Assembly: GCF_017565645.3 (NCBI RefSeq)
Contig: NZ_CP086136.1
Span: 4,261,501-4,325,500 of the forward strand
Direction of reading: 5' to 3'
Length of the DNA stretch: 64,000 nt
From: Bradyrhizobium barranii subsp. barranii
GTDB taxonomy: Bacteria; Pseudomonadota; Alphaproteobacteria; Rhizobiales; Xanthobacteraceae
Part shown: positions 4,401-22,513 of the stretch, piece by piece
How positions within the stretch are numbered: the stretch's first letter is position 1
How the letters are laid out: each line of letters starts with the position of its first letter
Translations under genes and position numbers: made by a program
Notes under the pieces: model-generated
Database searches by the model: none
What the model was told of the DNA's origin: nothing
What the model saw: the letters and a program-made list of their open reading frames with translations, nothing else

Positions 4401-4835
4401 GTGGGCCTGGGGATAGCCGAAATAGGCAAGCACGCCATCCCCCATGTACCGCGCGATGACGCCCTCATTCCGGGCGATAACACCCGCGATGCAGTCGTGA
4501 TAGGCACCGATTACCGAGCGCAAGTCCTCTGGATCCAGTCGGGCCGCAAGTGCCGACGAGTCCACCAGATCGCAAAACATGACCGTCAGTTGGCGCCGCT
4601 CGGCGCTGTCCCGCGGCGCCGGTTTGGCGGCCGTTCGGACTGATACGAGGACTTCACTCTTGAGTTCTGCAATTGCGCGCAGAAGTTTGCGCCGGTGCCC
4701 AAGCAGGACGCCAAGGTCCTTGAGGTCCTGCTCCGTGAGATCGCTAACGACCGAGAAATCGATGGCGTTCTCGGCGAAACGCTGGGCGTACTCCCCCAAA
4801 CCGATCGATGCGAGCCACTCTGCAGTACCTGTCAT
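1475..4835 (-). pseudogene. SAM-domain/class III cyclase/AAA ATPase/TPR regulator, frameshifted
   Basis: The N-terminal frame begins MTGTAEWLASIGL. It contains a SAM domain (about residues 1-60), a class III adenylate/guanylate cyclase domain (about 75-250, with metal-binding FCDLVDS and YMGDGVLAYFGYP), a helical linker, and an AAA/NB-ARC-like ATPase with Walker A GEPGIGKS and Walker B-like VFVIFEDAHWAD. The frame then stops early near 2463. The remaining roughly 350 residues of TPR-like helices continue in another frame down to 1475. The break lies at a run of nine G (nine C in the coding sense) at 2516-2524. Eight C would read LEAPPEQLQIM straight through and give about 1,130 residues, the usual size of this family. 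Likely role: a cytoplasmic signalling ATPase or cyclase. ATG at 4833-4835 is preferred because SAM homology starts right there. Sequencing error, slippage-based switching and real decay are all possible. Confidence 0.8.
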
Positions 4836-5478
4836 GGGATACCTATGGCCTATGCGATAAGAATAGCACATTGGAATAGCCAGCGAAGGCGCATCTATCG
4901 CCGGAAGCGCAGATCGCCGGACCTCTCGCCCAGTTGAAAGGGCTCCGGCGAAAACTGGATGCTGCCAAGCGATGTCGCAGTTGGGTCAAAAGCCGACATC
5001 AAGCAGACGGCCACGATAGGTCTGCCATGAGCCAATAGCGGTCCTCGGCGAGGCCGGACGTAATATGCACTTTGTGCCAAAATGCGGATTCAAGATGGAG
5101 CGCAACTGATGTTCGATTTATCGCGCCGATTAGAGCAACATTGATCAGCCTTTGCTGTGGCCCAAGATGTGGGCGCGCAAGCGGCGCCATTTCATCGGGT
5201 GATGGTATGCTCCACCGTTCCCAATCGTCGCGGGCGGGCTTTAGCTTGCTGATCCCCTAGTAACTGGGATGTCCGAGTTGGCGATGGAAGCCATCGACTA
5301 TCCATGGGCAGCGATGATGGCATTGTGCCACTGTGTTGCCCGACGGATCAAGTTTTTTTCGAAAAATCCGCAGTTGCTGGGTATCAAGCCATTGATATCG
5401 CTGCCGCCAGCTACTGTGCATGGGGTTGTTTTTCGATATTTTTGTTGTGCGGCTCGCCGAGCCTGATCCCGGCTCGCT
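4836..5478. other. intergenic, no supported gene
   Basis: About 640 bp lie between the divergently oriented cyclase start and the livF stop. Only short open frames without codon-use support or recognisable motifs are present. The stretch resembles degenerate non-coding filler of the kind common in Bradyrhizobium-type genomes. There is a T-rich tract at about 5352-5360 but no convincing terminator stem beside it. Confidence 0.5.
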
Positions 5479-6192
5479 CTAGTGTCCACCTAGATAGGCC
5501 GTGATCAGCCGGGGATCGTGGATGAGATCCTTGGCCGGGCCCGACTGCACGACCTCGCCGGTCTCGAGCACATAGCCGTAGTCGGCCGTCTCGAGCGCGG
5601 CGCGGGCGTTCTGCTCGACCAGCAGGATGGACACGCCGAGGTCGCGTAGCGACGCGATGGTGCGAAAGATCTCGCGCACGATCAGCGGCGCGAGGCCGAG
5701 GCTCGGCTCGTCCAGCATGAGCAGTTTCGGCTTGGCCATCAGCGCGCGGCCGAGCGCGAGCATCTGGCGCTCGCCGCCGGAGAGCGTGCCTGCCGCCTGG
5801 CGCTGCCGCTCCTTCAGGCGGGGGAAGCGATCATAGACCTCGTCCAGCGTCTTCTGGACGCCCGAGCGGTCGCGCAGGCTGTAGGAGCCGAGCAGAAGGT
5901 TGTCCGCGACCGTCATGTCGGAGAACAGCTCGCGCTTCTCCGGCACCAGGCACAGCCGGCGCTCGACGCGATCTTCGACCGACATCCTGCCGATGTCGTG
6001 ACCCTGGAAGACCATGCGCCCGCGAGAGGCCAGCAGGCCGATGGCCGCCATCAGCAGCGTGGTCTTGCCGGCACCGTTCGGGCCGATGACGGTGACGATC
6101 TGACCTTCCTCGACCGACAGCGACACGTTGCGGACCGCTTCGACATTGTCGTAGCAGACCGTCACATCCGTCATGGACAGCATCTCGCTCAC
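5479..6192 (-). CDS. livF: branched-chain-type ABC transporter ATPase, LivF family
   Basis: This 237-residue cytoplasmic ATPase powers import through the LivH/LivM permeases encoded just upstream. It has Walker [10 protein letters not shown], signature [16 protein letters not shown], Walker [14 protein letters not shown] and the switch His in [12 protein letters not shown]. The [14 protein letters not shown] segment is typical of LivF. The start is GTG at 6190-6192, and its GTGA overlaps the stop of the preceding LivMG gene (4-bp coupling). It is the last gene of the minus-strand operon binding protein-livH-livMG-livF. The genes that diverge from this operon encode aromatic acyl-CoA catabolism, so the cargo is more likely an aromatic or related carboxylate than leucine; that is inference. 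Confidence 0.9.
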
Positions 6193-7954
6193 GCGACGCC
6201 TCCGAGATAGGCCTCTTGCACCCGCTCGTCGCTGCGGATCGCGGCTGGCGCGCCTTCGCAGAGTTTTGAGCCGAAATCGAGCACCACGATGCGGTCGACC
6301 AGCGACATCACGAACTCCATGTCATGCTCGACGATCAGGATCGTCAGATGGTCTGCCCGCAGCGAGCGGAGCAGTTCCGCAAGCCGCAGCTTCTCCTGGC
6401 GGCGAAGGCCGGCGGCGGGCTCGTCCAGCACCAGCAGCGCAGGGTCGGCGGCGAGCGCGCGCGCGATCTCAAGGATGCGCTGGTTGCCGAGCGGCAGATT
6501 GCCCGCGAGCTCGAACGGCTTGTCACCAAGCCCGACGCGTTCGAGCTGCATCAGCGCCTCGTGCCGGGTACTGGCTTCCTCAGGCCCGTTGAGGCGGAAG
6601 GCGCCGGCGAACAGGCCGGTGCGCGTGCGGGCATAGGTGCCGAGCATCACGTTTTCCAAGAGGCTCATGCGCGGCCTCAGCTTCACATGCTGGAAGGTTC
6701 GCGCGACGCCGGCCTTGGCGATGCGGGACTGCGCATCATGCGTGATCGGTCGCCCCGCAAAGACGATCTCACCCTTGTTGACCCGGAGCGCGCCGGTCAG
6801 GCAGTTGAACATCGTGCTCTTGCCGGCGCCGTTGGGGCCGATGACGGCAAGGATTTCGCCAGCGCGGACCTCGAAACATTGTTGACCGCGACGAGGCCGC
6901 CGAACCGGCGCTCGGCACCATCCACTTTCAGAAGCAGCTCCCCGGGCGTCGGTTGCGCGCGACGGGGCAGGGGCGGCGCCGGTTGAGGTCGCTCGCGTTT
7001 GGCCTTGGGCAGATAGCGGGCGACGAAGGGAACGATGCCTTGCCGTGCCCATTGCAGGAACAGGATGAACAATGCGGAGAAGGCGACGATCTCGAGCTGG
7101 CCGGAGGCACCCTTGGCGATCAGCGGCAGATAATCCTGCACGCTGTTCTTGAGCAGCGTGACGACCGCGGCCCCCACGACGCCGCCGAGCAGGCTGCCGG
7201 CGCCGCCGACCATCGACATCATCAGATATTCGATGCCCATGCCGGCGTCGAACGGACCCGGGCTGATGAAGCGGCTCATATGTGCGTAGAGCCAGCCGGA
7301 GAGCGAGGCGAGGAAGGCCGCGATCACGAAGGTCACGAGCTTGATGCGGAAAGCGTTGATGCCGAGGCTCTCGACCAGCGTATTGCCGCCGCGGAGCGCG
7401 CGCATGGCGCGGCCGAGCCGGGAGTCCAGCAGGTTGTAGCCGAGGAAAAGCACCGCGGCGACGATGCCCCAGATCAGGAAATAGATCTGGGCGCTCGTGA
7501 CCAGCGCAATCGAACCGAAGCTGATCGGCGGGATCGACGAGATGCCGTTGAAGCGGCCGAGCCCCTCGACATTGCCGAACAGGAAGCCGATAGCGAGGCC
7601 CCAGGCGACAGTCGAGAGCGACAGGAAATGGCCCTGAAGTCGCAGGGTGACGACGCCGAGAACGGTTGCGACGCCGCAGGTCAGCGCCACGCCGAACACG
7701 AGGCCGAGCCACGGGGAGTACCCGTTCAACGCAGAGACCCACGCGGTTGCATAGGCCGCGACGCCGACGAACGCCGCCTGTCCGAACGACACGATACCGC
7801 CGACGCCGGTGAGGAGTGCAAGACCAATGGCGACCAGCGAATAGATGCCGATATAGTTCATCAGCGTGATGCTGAACGGACTGAGCACGAAGGGAGCCAC
7901 CGCGAGACACAGCACGGCGAGGACCGCGGCAAGCTGGATGTGGAGGCGCGTCAT
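6189..7954 (-). pseudogene. livM: LivM permease-LivG ATPase fusion, frameshifted at about 6875
   Basis: The first 320 or so residues form a LivM-type permease ([31 protein letters not shown] and eight or more hydrophobic segments). A Pro-rich linker leads directly into a LivG ATPase with no stop or restart, so this is a true fusion gene of about 590 codons. The frame changes between VAVNNV and [20 protein letters not shown] near 6870-6877, consistent with loss of one or four bases. The LivG part is otherwise complete: Walker [22 protein letters not shown] in place of the LSGGQ signature as usual in LivG, Walker [12 protein letters not shown] and [10 protein letters not shown]. Start ATG 7952-7954 overlaps the livH stop by 4 bp. 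As written the ATPase half cannot be made, which would cripple the transporter unless the indel is a sequence error. Confidence 0.82.
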
Positions 7955-8994
7955 TCCTCGATCTCCTCCTCGGAATGCAGCGAGGCGAGGGATCGCCAGA
8001 TCAGGATCGGGATCAGCAGCGAAAAGACGATGACGTCCTTGAGTGCGCTGCTCTCGAAGGAGGCGAAGCTTTCGAGGATGCCGACGCCGACGGCGCCGAT
8101 CGCCGCACCGGGATAGCTGGTCATGCCACCGACGATGGCGCCGACGAAGGCCTTGAGGCCGATCAGGAAGCCGGAATCGTAGAAGACGGTGTTCACCGGC
8201 GCGATCAGGATGCCGGATACGCCGGCCATCAGCGATCCCAGCAGGTAAGCGATCGTGCCGGCGCGGGCGGGGCGTATTCCCATCAGCCGGGAGCCGGTCC
8301 GGTTCACGGCCGTGGCGCGTAGCGATTTTCCGACCAGCGTGAAGTCGAAGAAGAGGTAGAGGAGGCCGCTGAAAACGAGGGCCGCGATCACGATCAGCAT
8401 GGTTTGCCCCGAGATCAGCACGCCCGCGAACTCGGTCGAGAGCGAGGTCAGCGGCTCGGTTCGGACCCCTTCGGGCCCGAAGAACAACAGGCCAAGGCCG
8501 ACCAGCGCGAAATGCAGCGCCACGGACACCGTCAGCAACAACAGCACGGTGCCGTCAGCGATGGGACGGAAGACGATCCGATCCAGAAGCGGGGAGATCG
8601 GCGTGATCAGCATCAGCGCCAGCACGAGCCTGACGGCAAGCGGCGGGTCCAGGCGCATGACAAGCCAGGCTGCACCGACCACGGCGAGCGGAAGCAGGAG
8701 ATAGAAGGACAGCGCGCGGGGCAGCAGCCGGAGTTCGCCGGAGCGCACCAGCGAGATGATCTCGATCAGGGTCGCAAGACAGGCCAGGATCACAACCAGC
8801 GCTCCCGTGCCGGGAAAGCGCTTCGCGTCGAGGGCGGCAAGCGTCAGCGCGGTGAAGGCCGCGATGTCGCCGAAGGGAATGAAGATGACTCGCGTCACCG
8901 TGAAGATCAGGACGGTCCCGATCGCCACCAGGGCATAGACGGCCCCGGTGGCGATCCCGTCGATCGCGAGAATGGCTGCAATGTCGCTCGTCAT
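7951..8994 (-). CDS. livH: branched-chain-type ABC permease, LivH family
   Basis: A 347-residue inner-membrane permease with a typical LivH start ([16 protein letters not shown]) and the conserved cytoplasmic loop [20 protein letters not shown] that contacts the ATPase. It ends [19 protein letters not shown] followed by a final membrane span. About eight to nine hydrophobic segments are visible. It is longer than the usual 290-300 residues because of an extra hydrophobic stretch at about 65-135. It lies 43 bp after the binding-protein gene and overlaps livMG by ATGA, so the genes are cotranscribed. It pairs with the LivM half of the next gene to form the channel. Confidence 0.9.
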
Positions 8995-9037: not shown

Positions 9038-10186
9038 TTATGGCGCGTACTTCCAGGCGCCGCCGGTCAGGCGCACCACGACGAGCGAGCGCTCGTCGAC
9101 ACCGGTGACCGCACCGGGCTTGAAATTGTAGACGGCATGCACGCCCGGCAGCTCCTTGGTGCTGAGGATCGCGTCCCGCAGCGCCGTGCGGAATTCCGCC
9201 GTTCCGGGCTTGGCGGTCTTCAACGCGCGCTCGGCGGCGTTGGCGAAGATCAGCCAGGCGTCGAAGGAATAGGCGGAGAAGCCGTCGGTGGTCGGGATGT
9301 TATGCGTCTTCTGGTATACGCTGCGGAAATCCAGCGCGATCTTCTTGGCAAAGTGCTCGTCGGGAAGCTGCTCGGCGACGATCACGGGACCCGCGGAGAC
9401 CTGAATGCCGTCGGCCGCCTTGCCGCCGACGTTGACGAAGTCCGGATTGACGAGTGCCACCGTGCCGTAGGTGTTTCCCTTGAAGCCCCGCTCGGCGAGC
9501 GTGATGAGCGGCAGCGCGCCTTGCGTACCCGAGCCGCCGTCCAGCACGGCGTCGGGACGTGCGGCCATCACCTTGAGAATCTGCGCGGTGACCGAGGTGT
9601 CGGTGCGGGCATAGCGCTCGTTGGTCTGAATCTTGATGTCGCCGGCGGCCTCGGCGGCCTTGGCGCCGTTGTAGACGAGGTCGCCCCAGGCATCGGAGAA
9701 GCCGACATAGCCGATGTTCTTCATGCCGTCGCGCTTCATGCGGTCGGCGACGATCTTGACGAGGAGAGAGGCCGGCTGCGGCACCGACACCACCCACTGC
9801 TCCGGCGTATCCGGCAGCTTGCCGATCGGCGAGACCGCGATCATCGGCACTTTCAGCTCGCTCGCCACCGCCGCCATGGCGATGGTCGAGGGCGCCGTGG
9901 CCGTGCCGATCAGGAGGTCCACCTTCTCTTCTTCCACCAGCTTGCGCGCATTGCGGGTCGCGGCCGACGGGTCGGAGCCGTCGTCGAGCTGGATCAGGCG
10001 AATGGTCTCGCCGTTGATGGTCTTCCTGTATTCATAGGCGGCATTGATGCCGCGCCCATAGGGGATTCCGATCGACGAGCCGTTGCCGCTCAGCGAGGTG
10101 ACGAAGCCGATGGTGATGTCGGCCTGCGCAGCCGGCGCTGCGAAGAGTCCGGCGACAAGTGCGAGTAGGCTCAGAGTCTTGCGCAT
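9038..10186 (-). CDS. periplasmic ligand-binding protein, LivK/Peripla_BP_6 type
   Basis: A 382-residue secreted receptor of the LivFGHM-type transporter. The Sec signal peptide (MRKTLSLLALVAGLFAAPAAQA) is followed directly by the mature start DITIGFVTSLSG. The fold continues with ARKLVEEEKVDLLIG, a short SPIG motif and a C-terminal GVHAVYNFKPG, as in aromatic- and amide-binding members. A strong GGAGG lies just before ATG 10184-10186. It leads the minus-strand operon and diverges from the catabolic operon at 10806. A second homologous binding protein is encoded at 15348-16504 (shared GFVTxLSG, ARKLVExEKVD and AVSPI motifs), so one transporter may use two receptors. Confidence 0.9.
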   Translation of the reverse strand: MRKTLSLLALVAGLFAAPAAQADITIGFVTSLSGNGSSIGIPYGRGINAAYEYRKTINGETIRLIQLDDGSDPSAATRNARKLVEEEKVDLLIGTATAPSTIAMAAVASELKVPMIAVSPIGKLPDTPEQWVVSVPQPASLLVKIVADRMKRDGMKNIGYVGFSDAWGDLVYNGAKAAEAAGDIKIQTNERYARTDTSVTAQILKVMAARPDAVLDGGSGTQGALPLITLAERGFKGNTYGTVALVNPDFVNVGGKAADGIQVSAGPVIVAEQLPDEHFAKKIALDFRSVYQKTHNIPTTDGFSAYSFDAWLIFANAAERALKTAKPGTAEFRTALRDAILSTKELPGVHAVYNFKPGAVTGVDERSLVVVRLTGGAWKYAP

Positions 10187-10734: not shown

Positions 10735-10754
10735 AGTTTATGATTGAAATATAT
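10735..10754 (+). promoter_or_regulatory. putative MarR-family operator, copy 2
   Basis: The sequence AGTTTATGATTGAAATATAT matches the 18916 copy in 15 of 20 positions and shares the core TTTATG-TT-AAATA. It lies 52 bp upstream of ATG 10806, in an AT-rich island inside GC-rich sequence, where an operator or promoter element would sit. Confidence 0.5.
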
Positions 10755-10805
10755 TTATCGGCCGTCGACGACCGATCCTCCGATCACCGCCTGAGGAGAA
10801 GGACG

Positions 10806-11588
10806 ATGCGCATCTTCTGGCAGAGCTTCGTTGATGCGAGCGTGAACGCGCCCTACATGGCGCGGCTGTCGGAATACCTCAACAACATCGCTGCATCAGG
10901 CACGACAGTTCACGTCGAGGGCATTTCGCCGCCCGACCGGGAGTTCGGACGGCTCGCGGAATTGCGCTGTGCCGTCCAGGCGATCGACAACGGCATCACG
11001 GCCGAGGAGGGCGGGTTCGACGCCTTCGTGATGGGACATTTCCAGGATTCCGGACTCTACGAATTGCGTTCGACGCTCGACATTCCGGTGATCGGGACCG
11101 GCGAGGCGACGTTGCTGGCGGCCTCTCAGCTCGGCCGGAGGCTCGGCCTTGTGACGCTCGATCCCGTCTTCGAGGTCTGGCACTACGAGCAGGCCGAGCG
11201 TTATGGCCTCGGCGATCGCGTGGTCCACGTGACCGGCCTTGGCTGCAAGCCGGCGGATTTCGCCGATGCCTTTGACGGAGATCAGGCCGCGCAAGCCCGC
11301 ATGATCAAGGACTTCGTCGCCTGCGCACGCCCGCTGGTCGAGCACGGCGCCGACGTCGTGATCCCCGCCGGTGTACTGCCGGGCCTTCTGATCGGAAGGG
11401 AGCATGGCCTGAAAGTCGGGCACGCGCCGGTGGTCAATTGCGCGGCGGTGGCGCTGAAAAGTGCCGAGATGTGGGTCCAGCTCCGGCAGCTCAATGGCAC
11501 CGAGCCCAGCCGCGGGCCGAGCTTCAAGCGGGCCAGCGCCCAGGCGCGCGACGATTTCCGCGCACTGCTTGCTCGCAACAGCCGCTAG
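10806..11588 (+). CDS. Asp/Glu/hydantoin racemase-fold protein lacking both cysteines
   Basis: A 260-residue cytoplasmic protein of the Asp/Glu racemase superfamily, starting MRIFWQSF and alternating Rossmann-like strands. Racemases place one Cys after the first conserved Gly (GCFGDPG in hydantoin racemases) and one in a LGC motif. Here these are GHFQDSG (His78) and PAGVLPG (187-193), so neither catalytic Cys is present. The protein is therefore unlikely to be a two-base cysteine racemase. It could be an isomerase, decarboxylase or lyase variant of the fold. The start is fixed by GAGGAGAAGG just upstream of ATG 10806; a longer frame from 10740 runs through the operator motif and is rejected. 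It is the first gene of the plus-strand catabolic operon. Confidence 0.72.
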   Translation: MRIFWQSFVDASVNAPYMARLSEYLNNIAASGTTVHVEGISPPDREFGRLAELRCAVQAIDNGITAEEGGFDAFVMGHFQDSGLYELRSTLDIPVIGTGEATLLAASQLGRRLGLVTLDPVFEVWHYEQAERYGLGDRVVHVTGLGCKPADFADAFDGDQAAQARMIKDFVACARPLVEHGADVVIPAGVLPGLLIGREHGLKVGHAPVVNCAAVALKSAEMWVQLRQLNGTEPSRGPSFKRASAQARDDFRALLARNSR

Positions 11589-11601: not shown

Positions 11602-12015
11602 ATGATGATGACTCCCGAAAAGATCCTGTACGAGACCGAGGTGACGGCGATCGGCGGCCGGGACGGCAAGGCCGCCAGCGCCGACGGCCTGTTGTCGGTA
11701 TCGCTGTCCGTGCCGAAATCGCTGGGCGGTCCCGGGGGCGAAGGCACCAACCCCGAACAGCTCTTTGCGGCCGGCTACGCCGCGTGCTTTCTCGGTGCGG
11801 TCAAGCTCGTCGCGCGTACCCGGAAGGTCGTCCCATCCGCTGAGCCGTCGGTGACCGCGAAGGTTGCGATGGGTCCGGTTCCCGTCGGATATGCGCTCGC
11901 CGTCGAACTGAAGGTCGATCTGCCCGGTGTCGAGAGGTCGATGGCCGAGGAGGTCGTCGCGGGCGCGCACGAGCGCTGTCCCTTTCGAATGCAACTCGCG
12001 GCAATATTGCCGTGA
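11602..12015 (+). CDS. ohr: organic hydroperoxide resistance protein, Ohr/OsmC family
   Basis: A 137-residue Ohr-type thiol peroxidase that reduces organic hydroperoxides with lipoyl/thiol electron donors. Both redox cysteines are visible in the usual settings, GYAACFLGA and HERCPFRMQ, and the N-terminal LYETEV and DGLLSV strands are typical. It lies 13 bp after the racemase-like gene with a GGAGAG site, so it is part of the operon. Placed beside a flavin monooxygenase pathway, it may detoxify peroxides formed by uncoupled turnover; that is inference. Confidence 0.9.
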   Translation: MMMTPEKILYETEVTAIGGRDGKAASADGLLSVSLSVPKSLGGPGGEGTNPEQLFAAGYAACFLGAVKLVARTRKVVPSAEPSVTAKVAMGPVPVGYALAVELKVDLPGVERSMAEEVVAGAHERCPFRMQLAAILP

Positions 12016-12053: not shown

Positions 12054-13235
12054 TTGGTGACCAATACCTTGCGCACACCGTACGACGGCGTCGTGATTGC
12101 GGCGCCCGTCACGATTCCCTATGTGCGCTACTCCATCGAGAGTGCGCAGTGGTGGATCGGGCGGGCACTGAGCACGCTCGTTGCGCAGGCCGGCATCAAG
12201 GCTTCCGACATCGACGGTCTGTGCGTCTCCAGCTTCACCATGGGCACCGACAGCGGGATCGGGCTGACGCAGCATTTCGGGCTCTGCGTGCGATGGCTGG
12301 ATACGATTCCGCTCGGTGGCGCCAGCGCCATCGCAGGCTTGCGAAAAGCGGCGCGCGCGGTTCAGGCGCGCGACGCCGACATCGTGGCGTGCATCGCCGG
12401 CGATACCAACCACGTCGATTCCTTCCGGCTGACGCTGGAGAACTTCTCGCGCTTCAACCAGGATGCCGTCTATCCCTATGGCGCCGGTGGCGCCAATGCG
12501 AGCTTCGCGCTGATCGCCCGCAACTACATGCGGACCTTCGGCGTCACGCGTGAGGATGTCGGCAGGATCGCCGTCGCCCAGCGCGCCAATGCCCTGCGCA
12601 ACCCGCATGCGCTGATGAAGACGCCGCTGACGATGGAGCAATATCTGGCGGCCCGGCCGATCTCAGATCCCATCCATCTCTTCGACTGCGTGATGCCATG
12701 CGCCGGCGCCGAAGCCTTCCTGGTGATGCGGGACGAGACCGCGGCTTCGCTCGGGCTGACAGCAGCACGGCTGCTTTCGACGATCGAGCGGCACAACGCC
12801 TTTGCCGACGATCCGATGCAGGTCCGCGGCGGCTGGGCCATGGACGTCGGTGAGCTCTACGCGATGGCCGGCGTGAGGCCCGACGATCTCGATGTCGTGC
12901 AGACCTATGACGACTACCCCGTCATCACGATGATGCAGTTCGAGGATCTCGGCTTCTGCAACAAGGGGGAGGGGGCCGAGTTCGTGCGTCAGCACGATCT
13001 CACCATCGACGGCGACTTTCCGCACAACACGTCGGGCGGACAGCTCTCGGCCGGACAGGCCGGCGCCGCCGGCGCCTATCTCGGTCTCGTCGAGGGACTT
13101 CGACAGGTTCTGGGGACTGCAGGCCCCACGCAGGTCGGGAACGCGAGCCTCGCCTTGGCCTCGGGGTTCGGTATGATCAACTATGACCGTGGTCTCGCCT
13201 CGGGCGCCGCGATCTTTGCAGGGCCGTCGCGATGA
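12054..13235 (+). CDS. thiolase-fold protein without catalytic cysteines, Ltp2-like aldolase candidate
   Basis: A 393-residue thiolase-superfamily protein of the SCP-x/Ltp2 type. The thiolase nucleophile Cys position reads LGGAS (about 87-91). The GHP histidine motif reads GQAG after NTSGG (325-336), and the C-terminal Cys motif reads LASGFGM (368-374). All three thiolase catalytic residues are thus missing. A YDDYPV segment (285-290) followed by FEDLGFCNKGEG matches the region where steroid retro-aldolases (Ltp2) carry catalytic tyrosines. The next gene begins with a DUF35 domain and overlaps by ATGA, as in Ltp2-ChsH2 pairs. Most likely it cleaves or forms a C-C bond on an acyl-CoA rather than doing thiolysis. 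Start is TTG 12054 or GTG 12057. Confidence 0.75.
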   Translation: MVTNTLRTPYDGVVIAAPVTIPYVRYSIESAQWWIGRALSTLVAQAGIKASDIDGLCVSSFTMGTDSGIGLTQHFGLCVRWLDTIPLGGASAIAGLRKAARAVQARDADIVACIAGDTNHVDSFRLTLENFSRFNQDAVYPYGAGGANASFALIARNYMRTFGVTREDVGRIAVAQRANALRNPHALMKTPLTMEQYLAARPISDPIHLFDCVMPCAGAEAFLVMRDETAASLGLTAARLLSTIERHNAFADDPMQVRGGWAMDVGELYAMAGVRPDDLDVVQTYDDYPVITMMQFEDLGFCNKGEGAEFVRQHDLTIDGDFPHNTSGGQLSAGQAGAAGAYLGLVEGLRQVLGTAGPTQVGNASLALASGFGMINYDRGLASGAAIFAGPSR

Positions 13236-14473
13236 TAGAGCCGATCAAGCCGCCCCGGCGCAAGAACCCGCTGCTGCGGACGCGGCTGCCTGCTTCGCCG
13301 CCGCGACCGCGCAGCAGGACGTCGCATGGGTTTACGCGGGCAGCCGCCGAGGGCCGCTTCATGCTGCAATGCTGTGACGCCTGCGGTTCTTTTGCTTATC
13401 CGGCGCGGGAGGCCTGTCCGTCTTGCCTGTCGGCCGGCCTTGCCTTCGTCGATGCGCCACGACGAGGTATTCTCCTTGCCGAAACGACTGCGCGCGTGCC
13501 GAGCGATGTCTATTTCCGCGAACGGGCGCCCTGGCGCATCGGCCTCGTGAAGATGGAATGCGGTCCGACGATTGTGACGCACCTCCATGCCGACTGCGTG
13601 GAGAGGGCACCGGTCCGCATGTCGTTTCAACTCGACAAGAGCGGCCAGGCAGTGGCCTTTGCCCATCCCGAGGGGGAGACTCCCAACATGGCAGACGACA
13701 AGCAATGGCGGGAAATGACGGCCGATCCGAAATTCCGGCGCGTGCTGGTGACCAACGGTCGGAGCGTGATCGGTCAGGAGGCCGTCGCCGCCTTGAAGGC
13801 CGCAGGCGCCAAGACGGTGTTCGTCGGGGTTGCCGAACCGTGGCGGCCTTTCGCCGGCGAGCAGCTGCTGCGCGGCCAGGACGGAATCGAGATCGTGACC
13901 CTTGACGCCGCCGACGAGAAATCTGCGGCCGATCTCGCGGCCGACATCGGCGGCAAGGTCGATATCCTCGTCAACACGACGGAGTATGTGCGGCCGGGCG
14001 GCCTGCTCGACCGCAGGGGCACGAGCGTCGCGCGCGACGAGATCGACCAGGCCTATCTCGGCTTCATCAACCTCGCACAGGCCTTCGGTCCCGCCATGCG
14101 AATGCGGGGTGCCGATGGCACCAACAACAGCGCCGCGTGGGTCAACATTCTCTCGGTCCATGCGCTGGCGAACTGGCCTGCCTTTGGCGCCTACTCGGCC
14201 TCGCAAGCGGCGTGCCTGTCGCTCTCGCACTGCCTCCGCGCCGAGCTCAGGCCCGGCGGCGTCAGGGTGATGAATCTGTTCACCGGGCCCGTCGACACCG
14301 AGTGGTTCCAGACCGTGCCGCCGCCGAAGGTCGCGCCGCGCGCCATCGCGCAGGCGATCGTGTCGGGGCTGAGAGGCGGGCTCGAGGAGATGTATGTCGG
14401 GGATGTCGCCGAAGAGATCAGGCAACGTCTCGCGGCCAATCCGAAAGCGCTCGAGCGCGAGCTCGACAGGTGA
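13232..14473 (+). CDS. DUF35 zinc-ribbon/OB-fold protein fused to a degenerate SDR
   Basis: A 413-residue fusion. Residues about 40-150 form a DUF35 unit: a zinc ribbon (C48-x2-C51 and C62-x2-C65), then an OB-fold with the APWRIGLVKMECG strand. Residues about 168-400 are short-chain dehydrogenase-like (VLVTNGRSVIG, DILVNTTEY, VNILSVHA, AYSASQAACLSLSHCLRAEL). The cofactor loop lacks the normal TGxxxGxG, and the catalytic YxxxK reads Y321-SAS-Q325, so the Lys is replaced by Gln. The SDR half may bind a ligand or act structurally rather than as a dehydrogenase. DUF35 proteins usually bind a thiolase-like partner, which is the gene immediately upstream (ATGA overlap). This fusion is uncommon to me, and its substrate is unknown. 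Confidence 0.78.
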   Translation: MIEPIKPPRRKNPLLRTRLPASPPRPRSRTSHGFTRAAAEGRFMLQCCDACGSFAYPAREACPSCLSAGLAFVDAPRRGILLAETTARVPSDVYFRERAPWRIGLVKMECGPTIVTHLHADCVERAPVRMSFQLDKSGQAVAFAHPEGETPNMADDKQWREMTADPKFRRVLVTNGRSVIGQEAVAALKAAGAKTVFVGVAEPWRPFAGEQLLRGQDGIEIVTLDAADEKSAADLAADIGGKVDILVNTTEYVRPGGLLDRRGTSVARDEIDQAYLGFINLAQAFGPAMRMRGADGTNNSAAWVNILSVHALANWPAFGAYSASQAACLSLSHCLRAELRPGGVRVMNLFTGPVDTEWFQTVPPPKVAPRAIAQAIVSGLRGGLEEMYVGDVAEEIRQRLAANPKALERELDR

Positions 14474-14507: not shown

Positions 14508-15290
14508 ATGCAGAGCAACAATCTCCTGGAGCTGGCGGGTGCGGTTTCTTCCGGCGCGGTGCGCGTCGTCGATCTGACATTTACGCTTAGTCCGGATTTT
14601 CCGGTCATCGTGCTGCCGCCCGAGTTCGGCCAGGCCGCGCCGGTCCGTATCCAGGAAATCTCGCGATACGATGGTCGCGGCCCGGCCTGGTACTGGAACA
14701 ACGTCACGTTCGGTGAGCACACCGGCACGCATTTCGACGCGCCGATTCACTGGTTCACCGGCAAGAACCTGCCGAACAATGCCGTCGACACGATGCCGAC
14801 CAAGGACATGATCGCACCGGCCTGCGTGATCGACTGCTCCGCCCAGGCGGCGCAGGATCCCGATTTCCTGCTGACGGTCCCGCTCGTCGAGGCCTGGGAA
14901 GCAAAGCACGGCCGGATCCCCGAGCGGAACTGGGTGCTGCTCAGGACCGACTGGTCGAAGAAGGGCTGGCGCGACTACTCCAATCTCAGGGATGACGGCG
15001 CACATACGCCCGGCCCCAACGCGGCCGTCATGAAGTGGCTGGTGGAGGAGCGCGGCGTCATCGGGTTCGGCACCGAGACCATCGGTACGGATGCGGGGCA
15101 GGCCGGTCATTTCGAGCCGCCTTATCCGGCGCATCACTTCCTGCACGGCGCGGGCCGCTACGGCCTGCAATGCCTGTGCAACCTGGATCAGCTTCCACCC
15201 ACCGGGGCGGTCATCGTGGCCTCGCCGCTGAAGATCCAGAACGGCTCAGGCAGTCCGCTTCGCGTTATCGCGCTGGTTGCGTCAACCTGA
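14508..15290 (+). CDS. cyclase-family hydrolase (kynurenine formamidase fold)
   Basis: A 260-residue metal-dependent hydrolase of the cyclase/KynB family. The signature HTGTHFDAPIHW supplies zinc or manganese ligands, and a second ligand cluster lies near GTETIGTDAG and PYPAHHFLHGAG. ATG 14508 has a GGAGGA site just upstream; an earlier in-frame start inside the preceding gene is rejected. Members hydrolyse formyl-kynurenine, cyclic amides or other ring compounds. In this operon a ring-opening hydrolysis of a dearomatised CoA thioester or a deformylation are both plausible, and the sequence does not decide between them. Confidence 0.82.
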   Translation: MQSNNLLELAGAVSSGAVRVVDLTFTLSPDFPVIVLPPEFGQAAPVRIQEISRYDGRGPAWYWNNVTFGEHTGTHFDAPIHWFTGKNLPNNAVDTMPTKDMIAPACVIDCSAQAAQDPDFLLTVPLVEAWEAKHGRIPERNWVLLRTDWSKKGWRDYSNLRDDGAHTPGPNAAVMKWLVEERGVIGFGTETIGTDAGQAGHFEPPYPAHHFLHGAGRYGLQCLCNLDQLPPTGAVIVASPLKIQNGSGSPLRVIALVAST

Positions 15291-15347
15291 ATCCAATCCA
15301 TGGCGCTTGCCAATCGGAACAAGACATCCTCACGAAAGACAGGTGCC

Positions 15348-16504
15348 ATGAACTTGATCAAGAGCCTGCTGGCTTCCACCGCATTGCTTCTCGCCGTCCC
15401 GCAACTTGCGCAGGCCGAGATCCTCGTCGGCTTCGTCACCGGTCTCAGCGGGCCGGTATCCTCGATCGGCATCCCGAATGCGAAGGGCATCGCCGCGGGA
15501 GAGGCCTATGTCGGTGAGATCGGCGGCGAGAAGGTCCGCGTCATCCAACTCGACGACGCTTCCGATGCCACCGCCTCGGCGCGCAACGCGCGCAAGCTCG
15601 TCGAGCAGGAGAAGGTCGATATCCTGATCGGAACGTCGGGCGCGCCGCAGACCCTGGCGATGGCGACCGCCGCGATCGAGATGAAAGTGCCGATGATCGC
15701 GGTGTCTCCGATCGCGCCGGTGCCGCCGGGCGACGGCGGCCCCTGGGTCGTCCAGACGCCCCAGCCGACGCCGCTTCTGGTGCAAGGCATCGTCGATCAC
15801 ATGAAGGCGAAGGGCCTGAAGACCGTTGCCTTCATCGGCTTCTCCGATGCGTTCGGCGACCTCATGTACAACTCGCTCGAGCAGAGTGTGAAGACGACCG
15901 ACATCAAGATCATTGCCAACGAACGCTACGCCAGATCGGATTCTTCGGTGACGGCTCAGGTGCTGCGCGCACTCGCCGCACGTCCCGACGCCATCATGCT
16001 CGGCGGCACTGGAACGCCCGGCGCGCTGCCGGTCATCGCCTTGTCCGAGCGCGGATATAAAGGGCCGCTATACGGCAATCATGGGCTGATCAGCGCCGAT
16101 TTCCTGCGTCTCGCCGGCAAGGCCGCCAACGGCATCATCTGCCCGACTGGACCCGTGACCGCGGCGGAGCAGCTCCCGTCCGGCAATCCGATCCAGAACG
16201 TGGCCCTGGATTTCCGCTCTGCCTTCGAGAAGGCGAACGGCGAGGCGCCGACGGATTCATTTCGTCCTATTCCTTCGACGGCTGGCTCGTGTTCGCCGAT
16301 GCCGCCAAGCGCGCGATGGCAACCGGTGCCAAGCCCGGCACGCCGGAATTCCGCACCGCGCTTCGTCAGGCGCTGTTCACGACCAAGGAGGTCGTCGGGA
16401 CGCAGGGCGTCTACACCTATACGCCGGCGGATCGGCACGGCGTCGACGATCGCTCGCGCGTCATGGTCCAGATCGAGAACGGCAAGTACAAGCTGTTGCC
16501 CTGA
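15348..16504 (+). pseudogene. second LivK-type binding protein, frameshifted near 16260
   Basis: Signal peptide MNLIKSLLASTALLLAVPQL ending at AQA, then mature EILVGFVTGLSG. It is parallel to the binding protein at 9038-10186 through most of its length. Near 16256-16265, after APTD, the frame shifts. The true continuation SSYSFDGWLVFADAAKRAM and the tail GTQGVYTYTPADRHG lie in the next frame and end at 16504, where the normal C-terminus would be. With one base restored the protein would be about 385 residues, equal to its paralogue. It sits in the catabolic operon without its own permease and would rely on the LivHMGF set. As written it would make an aberrant tail that runs on to 16517. Confidence 0.82.
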
Positions 16505-16513
16505 GACGGGAGC

Positions 16514-18175
16514 ATGATCGTGACGGAGAACGCGCCGGTGAACGTCAGCGACGCGGTCGGCCAGGAGAACGTGACGCCGGCCTGGGCGTGTGCAGTGACG
16601 TCGTTTCCGCCGTCGGACCGCATCCTCTCAACGATCCTCACCCGGCAGGCCGAGCGCTATGGCGAGCGCGTGCTGCTTGTCGCCGGTGAGACGCGCTGGA
16701 GCTTTGGGCAGACCGCGGCGATCGCGGCCGCGTCGGCCCAGGCGCTCGTCGACGCCGGGATCAGGCCGGGCGATCGGGTCGCGCTGATGTGTTCGAACCG
16801 TCCGGAGTTCCTGCAGGTCTATCTCGGCTGCGCATGGCTTGGCGCCATCGCAGTCCCGATCAATACCGCGCTACGCGGCTTCCAGCTCTCCCACATCTTC
16901 CGCAACTCGCGTCCCGCGCTCCTCGTCGTCGAGGCTCAGTTCGTCGACGCGATCGAGAGTGTCGAGGCGGGTGTCGACCTGCCACCTCGCACCTGGATCG
17001 TCGGAGCTGCCGCCGGTGCAGTCGACGCCAGGCTTTCCGCGGTACCGTTGCCGGCACTGGGAGCCGCGGCCCCGGCGGGTGCCGTGCGTCCCGGCGACAC
17101 CGTTGCGATCCTCTACACGTCGGGCACGACGGGGCCAGCGAAGGGCGTGTGCTGTCCGCAGGCGCAGCTGTTCTGGTGGGGCATTTATTCGGCGCGGGCG
17201 CTTGGCATCCGCGAGGGCGATGTGCTGTTCACGACACTGCCGCTGTTCCACACCAACGCGCTCAATGCGTTCTATCAGGCGCTCCTGAACGGCTGCACCT
17301 ACGTGCTGGAGCCGAAATTCTCCGCGTCCGGATTCTGGGCGGCCGCGCAACGGCACAATGCGACGGTCGGCTATCTGCTCGGCGCGATGGCGTCGATGCT
17401 GCTGGCGCAGCCGACGAATGCGAACGATAAGGCGCATCGTCTTCGCGTTGCGCTTGGAGGCGGCGTGCCGCCGCAAATCCACGGTCCGTTCCTTCAGCGG
17501 TTTGGCGTGCCGCTGGTTGACGGCTACGGGTCGACCGAGACCAATTTCGTGTTCGCGGGCACGATCCCGTCGGATCGTCCGGGAACGATGGGCTATCTGG
17601 CCGACGGAATCGAGGCGCGGATCGTCGATGAAGACGATTCAGCGCTTCCTGACGGGCAGGCCGGCGAGCTCGTGCTTCGCGCCGGAGAACCCTTTGCTTT
17701 CGCCACCGGCTATTTCGGCATGCCGGAGAAGACGGTCGAGGCCTGGCGAAATCTGTGGTTCCATTCGGGCGATCGGGTCGTTCGGGATGCTGACGGACAT
17801 TATCGCTTCATCGACCGCATGAAGGATTCGATCCGCAGGCGCGGCGAGAACGTATCCTCATGGGAGGTCGAGCAGACCATCCAGTCCCATCCCGCGGTCG
17901 CCGCCTGCGCGATCTACCCGCTGCCGTCGGAGCTGGGCGAGGACGAGGTTGCGGCTGCGATCCTGCTGGAGCCGGGCCAATCGCTGGAGCCCTTCGACAT
18001 CGTCAGGCATTGCGAAGGCCAGATCGCCTATTTCGCCATCCCGCGCTATGTGCGCATTCTGAGCCAGATGCCGTTGACTGAGAACGGCAAGATCAAGAAG
18101 GGCGTGCTGCGTGAGGCGGGCATCACCACGGATACGTGGGATCGCGAGGCGGCCGAAGTGAAGGTGCGGCGCTGA
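16514..18175 (+). CDS. acyl-CoA ligase (AMP-binding, CaiC-like)
   Basis: A 553-residue ANL-superfamily ligase that would activate the pathway acid to its CoA thioester through an acyl-adenylate. The P-loop-like motif is LYTSGTTGPAKGV, the A5 motif DGYGSTETN, and the hinge IDRMKDSIRRRGENVSSWEVE. The C-terminal catalytic Lys is in ENGKIKKGVL. It resembles crotonobetaine/carnitine-CoA ligases and related organic-acid ligases more than benzoate ligases, so the acid is not fixed by sequence. The start at 16514 lies 9 bp after the preceding stop. It is the last gene of the plus-strand operon and supplies the CoA substrate for the hydroxylase encoded at 18982. Confidence 0.88.
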   Translation: MIVTENAPVNVSDAVGQENVTPAWACAVTSFPPSDRILSTILTRQAERYGERVLLVAGETRWSFGQTAAIAAASAQALVDAGIRPGDRVALMCSNRPEFLQVYLGCAWLGAIAVPINTALRGFQLSHIFRNSRPALLVVEAQFVDAIESVEAGVDLPPRTWIVGAAAGAVDARLSAVPLPALGAAAPAGAVRPGDTVAILYTSGTTGPAKGVCCPQAQLFWWGIYSARALGIREGDVLFTTLPLFHTNALNAFYQALLNGCTYVLEPKFSASGFWAAAQRHNATVGYLLGAMASMLLAQPTNANDKAHRLRVALGGGVPPQIHGPFLQRFGVPLVDGYGSTETNFVFAGTIPSDRPGTMGYLADGIEARIVDEDDSALPDGQAGELVLRAGEPFAFATGYFGMPEKTVEAWRNLWFHSGDRVVRDADGHYRFIDRMKDSIRRRGENVSSWEVEQTIQSHPAVAACAIYPLPSELGEDEVAAAILLEPGQSLEPFDIVRHCEGQIAYFAIPRYVRILSQMPLTENGKIKKGVLREAGITTDTWDREAAEVKVRR

Positions 18176-18187: not shown

Positions 18188-18691
18188 TCAAGGTTTTTGC
18201 AGGGCGTCCTTGACGGCAGCCTTGAGGTCATCGAGCTCGCCGATCAATCCGTCGAACCGGTCCGCCGGGAAATCCGCCAGCAGCTCGGCAAGCCACGCGC
18301 CGTGGCTCTTGGCCATCCGCCTGAAGGTCTTGCGGCCTTCGACCGTCATGCAGACAATCTGCACGCGGCGGTCGAGGTTCGACGGCGTGCGCGTGATGTA
18401 TCCGTCCTCGACCAGGCGGTCCACGATCGGCGTGAGGTTCCCGGCCGAGACCATCAGGCGCTTGGGCAACTCTCCCAGCACAAGCCCGCTCGGTTCGCGG
18501 TCGAGCTGGGCCAGAACATCGAAGCGGGGCATCGTGAAATCGAACTCTTCGCGAAACCGGCGCCGCAACTCGCCTTCGATCAGGGTCGTGCAGGCGAGCA
18601 GCCGGAGCCAGACCCGCGTTTGAGCCCTGTACTCGGCGTCCTGATCCGCCCCATTCTTTGAAACAGGCGTGGACTCCTTCGCGAGTGCCAA
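18188..18691 (-). CDS. MarR-family transcriptional regulator
   Basis: A 167-residue winged-helix regulator. The dimer helix is followed by FDVLAQLDREPSGLVLGELPKRLMVSAGNLTPIVDRL and the wing ITRTPSNLDRRVQIVCMT. The start is TTG 18689-18691, supported by GGGAG six bases upstream; no ATG is better placed. It diverges from the monooxygenase gene at 18982 and is convergent with the ligase operon. Family members that control aromatic catabolism usually repress and are released by the CoA thioester; that is a family expectation. The repeated AT-rich motifs at 10541, 10735 and 18916 are its best candidate sites, and an inverted repeat at 18746-18767 may serve autoregulation. Confidence 0.88.
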   Translation of the reverse strand: MALAKESTPVSKNGADQDAEYRAQTRVWLRLLACTTLIEGELRRRFREEFDFTMPRFDVLAQLDREPSGLVLGELPKRLMVSAGNLTPIVDRLVEDGYITRTPSNLDRRVQIVCMTVEGRKTFRRMAKSHGAWLAELLADFPADRFDGLIGELDDLKAAVKDALQKP

Positions 18692-18981: not shown

Positions 18982-21300
18982 ATGCGCATAGTCTGTATCG
19001 GCGGCGGCCCGGCCGGTCTCTATCTGGGCCTGCTGATGAAGCGCCGGCACCCGGAGCATGTCATCACGGTCGTCGAGCGCAACAAGCCCTACGACACGTT
19101 CGGCTGGGGCGTCGTGTTCTCGGATGCCATGATGTCCGCGATGCGCCTTGCCGACCCCGAGAGCGCGGCCGAGATCGAGGACGCCTTCAATCACTGGGAC
19201 GACATCGAGCTCGTCTTCAAGGGGACGCGCCAGCGCACGACGGGCCATGGCTTCATCGGTATCGGGCGCAAGCATCTGCTCAATATTCTTCAGCGGCGCT
19301 GTGAAGCGCTGGGTGTCGAGCTCGTCTTCGAGCGCGAGGTCGAATCCGATCTCGAATACCCCGACGCCGACCTGATCGTCGCCTGTGACGGCGTCAATTC
19401 CAGGATCCGCGCTCGCTATGCCGAGCAATTCCAGCCCGACATGGTGATCCGGCCCAACCGCTTCATCTGGCTCGGCACCAAGAAGGCGTTCGACGCCTTT
19501 ACATTTGATTTTCAGAAGACCGAGCACGGCTGGTTCCAGGCGCACATCTACAAGTTTGATGCGGAGACCTCGACCTTCATTGTCGAGACCACGGAAGAAG
19601 CCTACAACGCCCACGGGCTTGGCGAGCTCGATCAGCAGGCCTCGATCGAGTTCTGCGAAAAAATCTTCGCCGAGACGCTCGATGGCGCGAAGCTCCTGAC
19701 CAATGCGCGCCATCTGCGCGGCTCGTCCTGGCTCAATTTCAGCCGCCTGATCTGCGGCAAATGGAGCGTGTTCAACGGCAAGTCTCATGTCGTGCTGATG
19801 GGGGACGCCGCGCATACCGCGCATTTCGCGATCGGCTCGGGCACCAAGCTCGCGCTCGACGACGCCATCGAGCTTGCCAACCAGTTCGATCGCCATGGTC
19901 ACGGTCGCGCCGGCATCGAAACCGTGCTGGACGCGTACGAGGAGGTGCGCCGCGTCGACGTGGCGCGCATCCAGAATGCGGCGCGCAACGCCATGGAATG
20001 GTTCGAGGTGGTCGGCCACCGCTATGCCGATACGCTCGAGCCGCCGCAATTCTTCTATTCGATGCTGACGCGCTCACAGCGCATCAGCCACGAAAACCTT
20101 CGCCTGCGTGATCGCACCTGGCTGGAAGGTTTTGAGCGCTGGTTCGCCGCGCGGTCGGGCATTGCGGTCAAGGATGGCGAGCGGGTGCCGCCGCCGATGT
20201 TGACACCGCACCGTGTGCGCGGCCTTTCGCTTGCGAACCGGATCATGGTCTCGCCGATGGCGATGTATTCGGCGCAGAACGGACTCATCGACGACTTCCA
20301 CATCGCCCATCTCGGCGCGCGCGCCATGGGCGGCGCCGCGCTGGTCTTCGCCGAGATGACCTGCGTCTCGCCCGATGCGCGGATCACGCCGGGCTGCCTC
20401 GGGCTCTGGAACGATGCGCAGGCGGCGCAGTGGCGCCGCTTGGTCGAACTCGTCCATGGCGTCGGGCATGCCAAGGTGGGGATTCAGCTCGGCCACGCCG
20501 GCCGCAAGGGTGCGACCAGGGTGCCCTGGGAAGGGATCGATCAACCCCTTGAATCCGGAGACTGGCCGCTGATCTCGGCCTCGGCCCTGCCGTATCTGCC
20601 CCACAGCCAGTTGCCGCGGGCGATGGACCGCAGCGACATGGAACGCGTGCGCGACGATTTTGTCGCGGCAACACGTCGTGCCGCTGCCGCCGGCGTCGAA
20701 TGGCTCGAGCTCCATTGCGCGCACGGTTATCTGCTGTCGAGCTTCCTGTCGCCGCTGACCAACCGGCGCACGGATGAATACGGCGGCAGCCATGAAAACC
20801 GCGCGCGCTTTCCGCTGGAGGTGTTCAAGGCGATGCGCGCGGTGTGGCCGTCCGACCGGCCGATGTCGGTGCGCCTGTCCTGCCATGATTGGACCGACGG
20901 CGGTAACATTCCGGCCGATGCGGCGGTCTTCGCTGCGATGTTCAAGGAGGCCGGGGCGGACCTGATCGATTGTTCGTCGGGGCAGGTCTGGAAGGACGAG
21001 CGGCCGATCTATGGACGCCTGTTCCAGACGCCGTTCGCCGACCTGATCCGCAACGAGGTCGGCATTGAGACCATCGCAGTCGGTGCGATCTCCGAGGCCG
21101 ATCACGCCAATTCGATTCTCGCGGCCGGCCGCGCGGATCTCTGCGCCATCGCGCGGCCGCACCTTGCCGACCCGGCCTGGACGCTGCACGAAGCCGCGCG
21201 AATCGGCATCACAAAGGTCGAGTGGCCGAAGCAGTATCTGTCCGCCAAGGGACAATACGAAACCAATCTGGCGCGCGCCGCGGCAGCTAGCGCGCAATGA
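18982..21300 (+). CDS. bifunctional salicylyl-CoA/2-aminobenzoyl-CoA-type monooxygenase-reductase
   Basis: A 772-residue two-domain flavoprotein. Residues about 1-390 are a group A FAD monooxygenase ([12 protein letters not shown] near the N-terminus, a mid-domain DxxxxADGxNS-like segment [12 protein letters not shown], and [11 protein letters not shown] for FAD). Residues about 400-772 are an old-yellow-enzyme-type FMN reductase ([44 protein letters not shown]). This architecture is that of salicylyl-CoA 5-hydroxylase/oxidoreductase and of 2-aminobenzoyl-CoA monooxygenase/reductase, which hydroxylates and partly reduces the ring of anthraniloyl-CoA. Sequence alone does not separate the two substrates. 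ATG 18982 has a GAGGG site. It heads an operon with an acyl-CoA dehydrogenase and RidA, and the RidA neighbour favours an aminated intermediate. Confidence 0.9.
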
Positions 21301-21316
21301 GCGGAGGAGGGATCAG

Positions 21317-22495
21317 ATGAGCTCCACGGCGAAAGTGATCCGACGCGAATGGCTCGACTGGCCGTTTTTCGAGCCGCGTCATCATGCGGTCGGCGAGGCG
21401 CTCGATCGCTTCGTGCAGTCGGGGGCTCTCGACACAATCGATCACACTGATGTCGATGTCGCCTGCCGCAAGCTGGTGCGCGCGATGGGCGAGGCGGGGG
21501 TGCTCGATTGCGCCGTAGCGGCGCCCGACGGCGATGCGACGACGATCGATTCCCGCTCGATCTGCCTGTCGCGGGAGTCGCTGGCCTATGCCGATGGCCT
21601 CGCCGATTTCGCCTTCGCCATGCAGGGGCTCGGCTCCGGCGCGATCGCGCTCGGCGGCTCGGCGGACCTGCGCAAAGCTGTGCTGCCGAAAGTTCGCACC
21701 GGCGAATGGCTGGCGGCCTTCGCGCTGTCCGAGAAGGAGGCAGGATCGGACGTCGCGGCGATGTCCTGCACGGCACGGGCCGACGGCAACGACTACGTCA
21801 TCGACGGTGAGAAGACCTGGATCTCCAACGGCGGGATTGCCGACGTCTACACGCTGTTTGCGCGAACGGGCGAGGCGCCGGGCGCCCGCGGCATCTCGGC
21901 CTTTGTCGTTTTCCCGGATGATCCCGGCTTCGGCATCGCCGACCGCATCGACGTCATCGCGCCGCATCCGCTGGCGACGCTGCGCTTCACCAATTGCCGG
22001 ATTCCGGCGAGCCGTCGCCTCGGCGCGCCGGGCGGTGGGTTCAAGCTCGCGATGCAGACCCTGGATATTTTCCGCGCATCGGTCGCGGCCGCAGCCCTCG
22101 GCTTTGCGCGGCGTGCACTGGACGAAGCGCTGTCGCACGCGCGCAGCCGGCATATGTTCGGTGCGACGCTGGGAGATCTCCAGCTGACCCAGGCCGCGCT
22201 CGGCGACATGGCGACGGAGACTGACGCCGCCGCGCTCCTGACCTACCGCGCGGCCTGGCGCCGCGACGTCCAGAAGCTTACGACGACGCGCGAAGCTGCC
22301 ATGGCGAAGCTGACGGCAACCGAGACCGCGCAGCGCGTCATCGACCGCGCCGTCCAGATGTTCGGCGGCCGCGGCGTGCGCAAGGGTGAGATCGTCGAAA
22401 GCCTCTACCGCGAAATCCGCGCGCTGCGCATCTACGAAGGTGCGACCGAAGTTCAGAAACTGACTGTGGCGCGCGATCTCCTGAAGCCGCGCTGA
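21317..22495 (+). CDS. acyl-CoA dehydrogenase
   Basis: A 392-residue FAD-dependent acyl-CoA dehydrogenase. Typical blocks are [38 protein letters not shown], and [35 protein letters not shown], which places the catalytic Glu in YEGATEV. Start ATG 21317 follows GGAGGAGG; a longer in-frame extension into the preceding gene is rejected. It lies 16 bp after the monooxygenase-reductase stop. Likely role: oxidation of the dearomatised or ring-opened CoA thioester in a beta-oxidation-like sequence. Confidence 0.9.
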
Positions 22496-22513
22496 GAGGA
22501 TCGAGAATTCCGC

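Follow-up and report, generated by a model that had tools for sequence, protein, structure and literature searches.

A thiolase-fold protein and its DUF35-SDR partner in Bradyrhizobium barranii are the auxin degradation proteins IadG and IadH and are predicted to form a redox-neutral aldolase

What is the role of a thiolase-fold protein that lacks the catalytic residues of a thiolase and is encoded directly before a DUF35 zinc-ribbon protein fused to a short-chain dehydrogenase/reductase (SDR) domain? Two overlapping genes raise this question in a 64,000-nucleotide stretch of the Bradyrhizobium barranii subsp. barranii genome (contig NZ_CP086136.1, positions 4,261,501 to 4,325,500), here referred to as the window. 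An earlier interpretation made from the sequence (the original prediction) suggested that the pair may be an undescribed C-C cleavage module in an aromatic coenzyme A (CoA) operon. We are close to certain that the pair is IadG and IadH of the iad pathway, which degrades the auxin indole-3-acetic acid (IAA). The module is thus not undescribed, as the Variovorax counterparts of both genes have been knocked out previously (PMC12633357; statements about published work refer here to the consulted sections of each paper). Judging from sequence comparisons, IadG/IadH probably cleaves dioxindole-3-acetyl-CoA by a retro-aldol reaction to isatin and acetyl-CoA with no redox step. The retro-aldolase/pseudo-SDR reading is new here; the iadG and iadH genes and their knockout phenotypes were already known. 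The features of the pair and of the gene that follows it are listed below.

12057..13235, + strand: iadG, thiolase-fold protein, proposed dioxindole-3-acetyl-CoA aldolase (Thiolase_C_1 in Pfam; best PDB profile match 9myr, the bile-acid aldolase Sal)
12315..12326, + strand: GGAS of IadG, residues 87-90, at the place of the thiolase nucleophile Cys (same letters in Sal in the 9myr alignment)
12906..12917, + strand: YDDY of IadG, residues 284-287 (Tyr284 corresponds to the Sal base Tyr302, Asp286 to the Sal acid Cys304)
13035..13064, + strand: GGQLSAGQAG of IadG, residues 327-336, at the place of thiolase GHP (Gln329 and Gln334 correspond to Sal Gln347 and Gln352)
13232..14473, + strand: iadH, fusion of a DUF35 zinc ribbon and OB fold with a putative pseudo-SDR (zf-ChsH2, OB_ChsH2_C and adh_short in Pfam)
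13340..13441, + strand: C4 zinc ribbon of IadH, Cys48, Cys51, Cys62 and Cys65 (zf-ChsH2)
13739..14317, + strand: SDR domain of IadH, residues 170-362 (adh_short), with the nucleotide motif TNGRSVIG
14192-14206, + strand: SDR catalytic positions of IadH, Tyr321 and Gln325 (none of 90 loci has both Tyr and Lys)
14508..15290, + strand: iadI, isatin hydrolase (PF04199; match to 5nna, isatin hydrolase A, E = 8.9e-117)

The coordinates, frames and 4-bp gene overlap given in the original prediction were right, and the motifs it had pointed out (GGAS, GQAG, LASGFG, YDDYPV and FEDLGFC in IadG, and Gln325 in IadH) are all present. For iadG, a GTG start at 12057 is likelier than TTG at 12054 and gives 392 amino acids, as in most of the listed relatives, one of which is named Blr3429. 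To ask which neighbors the pair keeps, we surveyed one genome per species and retained the best 80 of 153 DUF35-SDR relatives, a sample in which distant relatives are underrepresented; the neighbor counts exclude loci truncated ahead of IadG (three) or behind IadH (one). In all 77 readable loci, the DUF35-SDR gene is immediately preceded by the thiolase-fold gene, a result on which the original prediction had staked itself and which it survived. The genes overlap by 4 bp (ATGA in the window) in 71 of these 77 loci and by 1 bp in the other 6. Directly downstream of iadH, a PF04199 gene is present in 79/79 readable loci, and in a PDB profile search its product in the window matches isatin hydrolase A at the E value given above, compared with 1.6e-5 for kynurenine formamidase. 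The aromatic-CoA setting, on the other hand, did not hold up: an FAD monooxygenase/old yellow enzyme (OYE) fusion gene that stands nearby in the window is found in only 17 of the 80 loci. The same two counts led us to drop a candidate in which the pair was a BbsAB-like ring-opening thiolase of an anthraniloyl-CoA pathway.

Gene order and sequence identity place the pair in the iad pathway. In plasmid-borne operons of Roseibium aggregatum and Ruegeria pomeroyi, genes for a reductase, Rieske alpha and beta subunits, an AMP-binding protein, a thiolase, a DUF35-SDR protein, a cyclase, and an SDR follow one another as iadC-D-E-F-G-H-I-J. A Sulfitobacter record, whose first gene is that for Rieske alpha, has the same order from there on (iadD-J), and a Variovorax-like genome (G434) has the iadC to iadJ order with an IadH sharing 98-99% identity with named Variovorax proteins. 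The order agrees with the iadC-iadJ gene numbers published for Variovorax. The window proteins are 60% (IadG), 44% (IadH) and 63% (IadI) identical to those of R. pomeroyi, which is among the reported IAA degraders and whose MarR protein is counted as an IadR (PMC9613470). An iad locus with a route through dioxindole-3-acetic acid (DOAA) and isatin has also been reported for B. japonicum USDA110 (PMC9613470).

In the 11.4-Mb genome that contains the window, the iad genes are split. IadD is encoded by the only PF00848 gene of the genome (C1 4219635), ~55 kb from the window pair, and is adjoined by iadC, iadE, iadF and iadJ, which are 54-75% identical to their R. pomeroyi counterparts. No iadG, iadH or iadI was found in the 56.5 kb upstream of the window, around iadCDEFJ. 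The genome has only one IadH and one YDDY thiolase-fold gene, and the window therefore supplies the steps missing from the iadCDEFJ cluster. We tested for IadD in 51 genomes, 44 of them from the genus of the window (all counts are without correction for relatedness). The same 18 of the 44 carry both IadH and IadD, and the remaining 26 carry neither; a single contig holds the two genes, separated by 8.5 to 55 kb, in 17 of these 18 genomes, and the draft G022 has them on two contigs. Outside the genus, both were present in G375 and G434 and neither in G148 and G345. Across the phylum, IadH was detected at E 1e-40 in 8/398 genomes, including that of the window. As a separate observation, a Shinella plasmid (L116:1-16000) carries genes for an IadF-like protein, IadG, IadH and IadI, with no iadCDE in the stretch; these genes adjoin others for indolepyruvate oxidoreductase, an aldehyde dehydrogenase and an FAD-binding oxidoreductase, and another front end may feed the module.

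We next compared the active site of IadG with those of related enzymes. Residue conservation was scored in 90 sources (the 80 survey loci, the window, and L116-L124), of which 87 gave IadG and 90 gave IadH. The thiolase nucleophile Cys and the His of GHP are absent at the GGAS and GQAG positions in all 87 IadG proteins, while G87, G88, Y284, D285, D286, Y287, Q329 and Q334 are identical in all 87. Sal residue numbers were recovered from the alignment with a constant offset of 24, derived in this analysis, at the sites named in PMC12329534, which is also the source for the catalytic roles assigned to residues of Sal and Ltp2. Sal Gly89, Tyr302, Gln347 and Gln352 align with G88, Y284, Q329 and Q334 of IadG, and the proposed acid Cys304 of Sal corresponds to Asp286, which is invariant in 87/87. 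In Sal, replacement of Cys304 by Ala, Ser or His abolishes activity, and Asp is not among the variants in the consulted sections (PMC12329534). The steroid retro-aldolase Ltp2 (6ok1 alignment) shares the base Tyr with IadG, and its acid Tyr344 has no counterpart. This pattern of conservation predicts a catalytic Tyr-Asp pair in IadG.

IadG was also compared with other proteins by profile and fold. Profile bit scores for IadG were 236 for Sal, 185 for the putative thiolase 4u4e, 178 for Ltp2, 168 for the thiolase 7yvy, and 120 for BbsB. An AlphaFold model of IadG from 28 sequences had a mean predicted local distance difference test score (pLDDT) of 78.6 and a predicted template modeling score of 0.84, with residues 120-147 and some loops below a pLDDT of 50. 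In Foldseek, 9myr (Sal) and 6ok1 (Ltp2) ranked at the top and thiolases next; the 50 listed matches all have E values of 1e-17 or better, and only their ranking is informative. The placement of IadG among Sal, Ltp2 and thiolases rests on these profile and Foldseek scores. The likeness to Ltp2 noted in the original prediction is real for the base Tyr and the fold, but the closest relative by both scores is Sal, even though the Sal acid Cys is an Asp in IadG. Among the five Thiolase_C_1 genes of the genome, YDDY occurs only in iadG; the other four have YDAF, YDSF, YDSF and HDCF, and the HDCF paralog retains the thiolase Cys and GHP. IadG is likely a thiolase fold converted to a C-C lyase.

IadH combines an intact zinc ribbon with a degenerate SDR domain. 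All 89 loci in which this region is readable have the four zinc-ribbon Cys residues. By contrast, all 90 IadH proteins lack the SDR Tyr/Lys pair: Tyr321 is kept in 65, and Lys occurs in a single protein, in which Phe replaces the Tyr. The nucleotide motif has lost two of its three glycines, position 175 (the first motif Gly) being Asn or Asp in 90/90 and position 179 being Gly in 1/90. The substitution of the catalytic Lys by Gln325 had been noted correctly, but the damage to the domain is wider than that. IadJ from the same genome, unlike IadH, retains TGGNSGIG and YSATK. An IadH model (pLDDT 82.7) matched SDRs, with 5u4s the best match. These substitutions make a pseudoenzyme or dead scaffold the best interpretation of the SDR domain, and NAD(P) binding by IadH is unlikely. 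Cofactor binding is called unlikely rather than excluded because 5u4s binds NADP despite a Leu aligned with the SDR Tyr. We therefore considered a variant in which IadG performs the retro-aldol reaction and the SDR domain retains NAD(P) binding or some activity, for example the interconversion of dioxindole and isatin. The precedent of 5u4s, together with the retention of Ser308 in 87/90 proteins and of the Tyr in 65, speaks for such activity; however, 5u4s itself keeps the Lys and the glycine motif, which are the elements changed in IadH at positions 175, 179 and 325. We regard this variant as unlikely.

How would such a pair act in auxin degradation? IadCDE and IadJ convert IAA to DOAA and IadF is thought to form its CoA thioester, as published or proposed by others. 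The product, DOAA-CoA, is a beta-hydroxyacyl-CoA with a tertiary alcohol and would be the substrate of IadG; its hydroxyl sits at the beta position relative to the thioester, as in the substrates of Sal and Ltp2. In the mechanism that we propose, the DUF35 part of IadH would hold IadG during retro-aldol cleavage, Tyr284 would take the proton of the C3-hydroxyl, the C3-CH2 bond would break with isatin departing as the ketone, and Asp286 would protonate the acetyl-CoA enolate. Isatin would then pass to IadI, and the SDR part of IadH would serve as a scaffold or substrate guide. By arithmetic, C10H9NO4 equals isatin (C8H5NO2) plus acetic acid (C2H4O2), with no redox change. In Variovorax, deletion of iadF, iadG, iadH or iadI leads to accumulation of C10H9NO4 (DOAA), and overexpression of the whole iadC-K2 region yields C8H7NO3 and C7H7NO (PMC12633357). 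A DOAA buildup in both the iadG and the iadH deletions is as expected if both proteins serve one step. Isatinate has the formula C8H7NO3, and isatin is the substrate expected for IadI by family.

A 2025 preprint assigned IadG as a ketothiolase and IadH as an alcohol dehydrogenase from knockouts and annotation (PMC12633357). In this scheme, the two enzymes would act reductively together with IadF to take off the side chain, yielding dioxindole for further processing. It draws on the annotation of the proteins as thiolase and SDR and on the accumulation of C8H7NO2 in the absence of iadI and in the presence of iadCDEFGH together with iadJ and K2 (PMC12633357). Set against this are the absence of the thiolase Cys/His from all 87 IadG proteins and of the SDR Tyr/Lys pair from all 90 IadH proteins, the membership of the next enzyme among the isatin hydrolases, and the phenotype of the iadH deletion, for which the consulted sections give DOAA and no later intermediate (PMC12633357). 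We consider the reductive route quite improbable.

The monooxygenase/OYE fusion, whose architecture we take to be that of 2-aminobenzoyl-CoA monooxygenase/reductase, invites a different use of the thiolase fold. IadG might be a Cys-independent thiolase acting on a beta-keto substrate, such as 2-aminobenzoylacetyl-CoA, to give anthraniloyl-CoA and acetyl-CoA, and a pathway through 2-aminobenzoylacetate had at one time been suggested for B. japonicum (work cited in PMC8383072). The His of GHP is kept in BbsB but missing in IadG, the fusion gene is far less constant a neighbor than the isatin hydrolase gene, and isatin or isatinate has been reported in iad strains in the literature consulted. This activity seems highly improbable.

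Several observations weigh against the retro-aldol reaction that we favor. C8H7NO2, the formula of dioxindole, and not isatin, was detected without iadI, and the iadI deletion accumulates DOAA as well (PMC12633357). The first would be explained if other enzymes reduced isatin to dioxindole, an assumption that is the weakest point of our reading; reversibility of the aldol reaction could explain the second. In IadG, the oxyanion residue Gln161 of Sal corresponds to Ala or Pro at position 146. The protein had been described as Cys-less, which is true at the thiolase catalytic positions but not elsewhere, as C211, C215 and C301 are invariant and one of them might touch the pocket. To our knowledge, Asp does not serve as the acid in any other aldolase with this fold. 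Outside the genus, three of the five IadH-positive genomes (G052, G321 and G447) have IadH without IadD. Finally, we found no published enzyme assay of IadG/IadH in the sections consulted; "aldol" is absent from the main text of PMC12633357, none of the papers listed in an open-license search on dioxindole-3-acetic acid or retro-aldol concerned this step, and no open-license paper joining dioxindole-3-acetic acid and aldolase was found.

On balance, we lean toward a broader interpretation of these sequences, in which IadG/IadH would represent a third type among thiolase-fold acyl-CoA aldolases, using a Tyr-Asp pair where Sal has Tyr-Cys and Ltp2 has Tyr-Tyr and a DUF35 partner carrying a dead SDR domain, would provide the general side-chain step of iad-type degraders, and would leave dioxindole as a side product rather than an intermediate.

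Other features of the window adjoin these genes.

5479-8994: ABC transporter adjoining the iad genes
9038..10186, - strand: solute-binding component of this ABC transporter (7ylt the best PDB match, E = 2.2e-135)
16514-18175: ligase of family NF004808 (33% identity to R. pomeroyi IadF)
18188..18691, - strand: MarR-family regulator (MarR match)

The solute-binding protein and the ABC transporter likely serve IAA uptake, and we take 7ylt to be IadK2. The IAA-binding IadK2 is described in PMC10374108, whose consulted sections do not confirm the code itself. A second solute-binding protein (15300-16517) matches 7ylt only to residue 323 of 405, the rest being in another frame; the gene reads through in the near relatives L025 and L026, which suggests a strain frameshift or an assembly error. 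With other window genes scored as present in a survey locus at >50% identity, relatives were found near the pair in 69 (solute-binding protein, 9038-10186), 60 (ligase) and 53 (MarR) of the 80 loci. Upstream of iadG lie a gene for an Asp/Glu racemase family protein (10740-11588; 67/80 loci), a family that includes arylmalonate decarboxylase, and, between it and iadG, an Ohr-type peroxiredoxin gene (11602-12015; 55/80). Genes for the monooxygenase/OYE fusion, an acyl-CoA dehydrogenase (26/80) and RidA (22/80) lie beside the pair at 18982-22945, perhaps for use of auxin-derived anthranilate. An integrase-core (rve) transposase-like gene (25868-26695) stands after the auxin genes amid short low-confidence frames, likely the remains of an insertion sequence. 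A gene for an 802-aa protein with a SAM domain, an adenylate cyclase domain and an AAA ATPase (2463-4871) is unrelated to the pair.

By removing auxin, bacteria that carry iad loci protect the growth of roots, and work is under way to transfer the pathway to other root bacteria (PMC12633357). The published proposal for conversion of DOAA to isatin invokes a reductive step for which the sequences offer no support. A retro-aldol cleavage free of redox chemistry, if true, would give a simple pathway of ligase, aldolase and isatin hydrolase and would predict its products and cofactor needs. It would also add indoles to the steroids as substrates of thiolase-fold aldolases, with a different residue as the acid.

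Among known systems, the iad loci of Variovorax paradoxus CL14 and B. japonicum contain the orthologs of the pair, with the same gene order, the same domain fusion, and an isatin hydrolase-type IadI next to it; in the genome of the window, 55 kb separate iadGHI from iadCDEFJ, and the roles proposed here are retro-aldolase and pseudo-SDR in place of the published ketothiolase and alcohol dehydrogenase. Sal/Shy of Comamonas testosteroni (9myr) shares the thiolase fold, DUF35 partner, Tyr base, Gln347/Gln352 and GGAS with IadG/IadH. It differs in the acid Cys304 of its YDCY motif (Asp286 in IadG), in the oxyanion Gln161 (Ala/Pro), and in a DUF35 domain with a Cys3His1 zinc site fused to a hydratase, whereas IadH has four Cys and an SDR domain. 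Ltp2/ChsH2 (6ok1) shares the fold, the DUF35 partner and the base Tyr of a YDxx motif (YDHF in Ltp2, YDDY in IadG) but has the acid Tyr344, absent from IadG, and a MaoC domain in ChsH2 where IadH has an SDR. Ltp2 releases a ketone from a tertiary alcohol, much as is proposed for IadG. The benzoylsuccinyl-CoA thiolase BbsAB (7pxp) has a thiolase fold, a zinc-finger DUF35 subunit and an aromatic acyl-CoA substrate, but BbsB keeps the Cys of the nucleophile region (SACSAG) and GHP, neither of which is found in IadG. Compared with the active SDR signature (TGxxxGxG and YxxxK), the glycine motif is altered and the pair absent in 90/90 IadH proteins. With a fold nearest to Sal and Ltp2, no thiolase Cys or His, a base Tyr, and an adjacent DUF35 gene, IadG has the features expected of a DUF35-dependent acyl-CoA aldolase, and the central idea of the original prediction, a converted thiolase fold that likely acts as a C-C lyase on a ring-derived acyl-CoA and is paired with DUF35 as in Ltp2/ChsH2 and Sal/Shy, is borne out by these comparisons.

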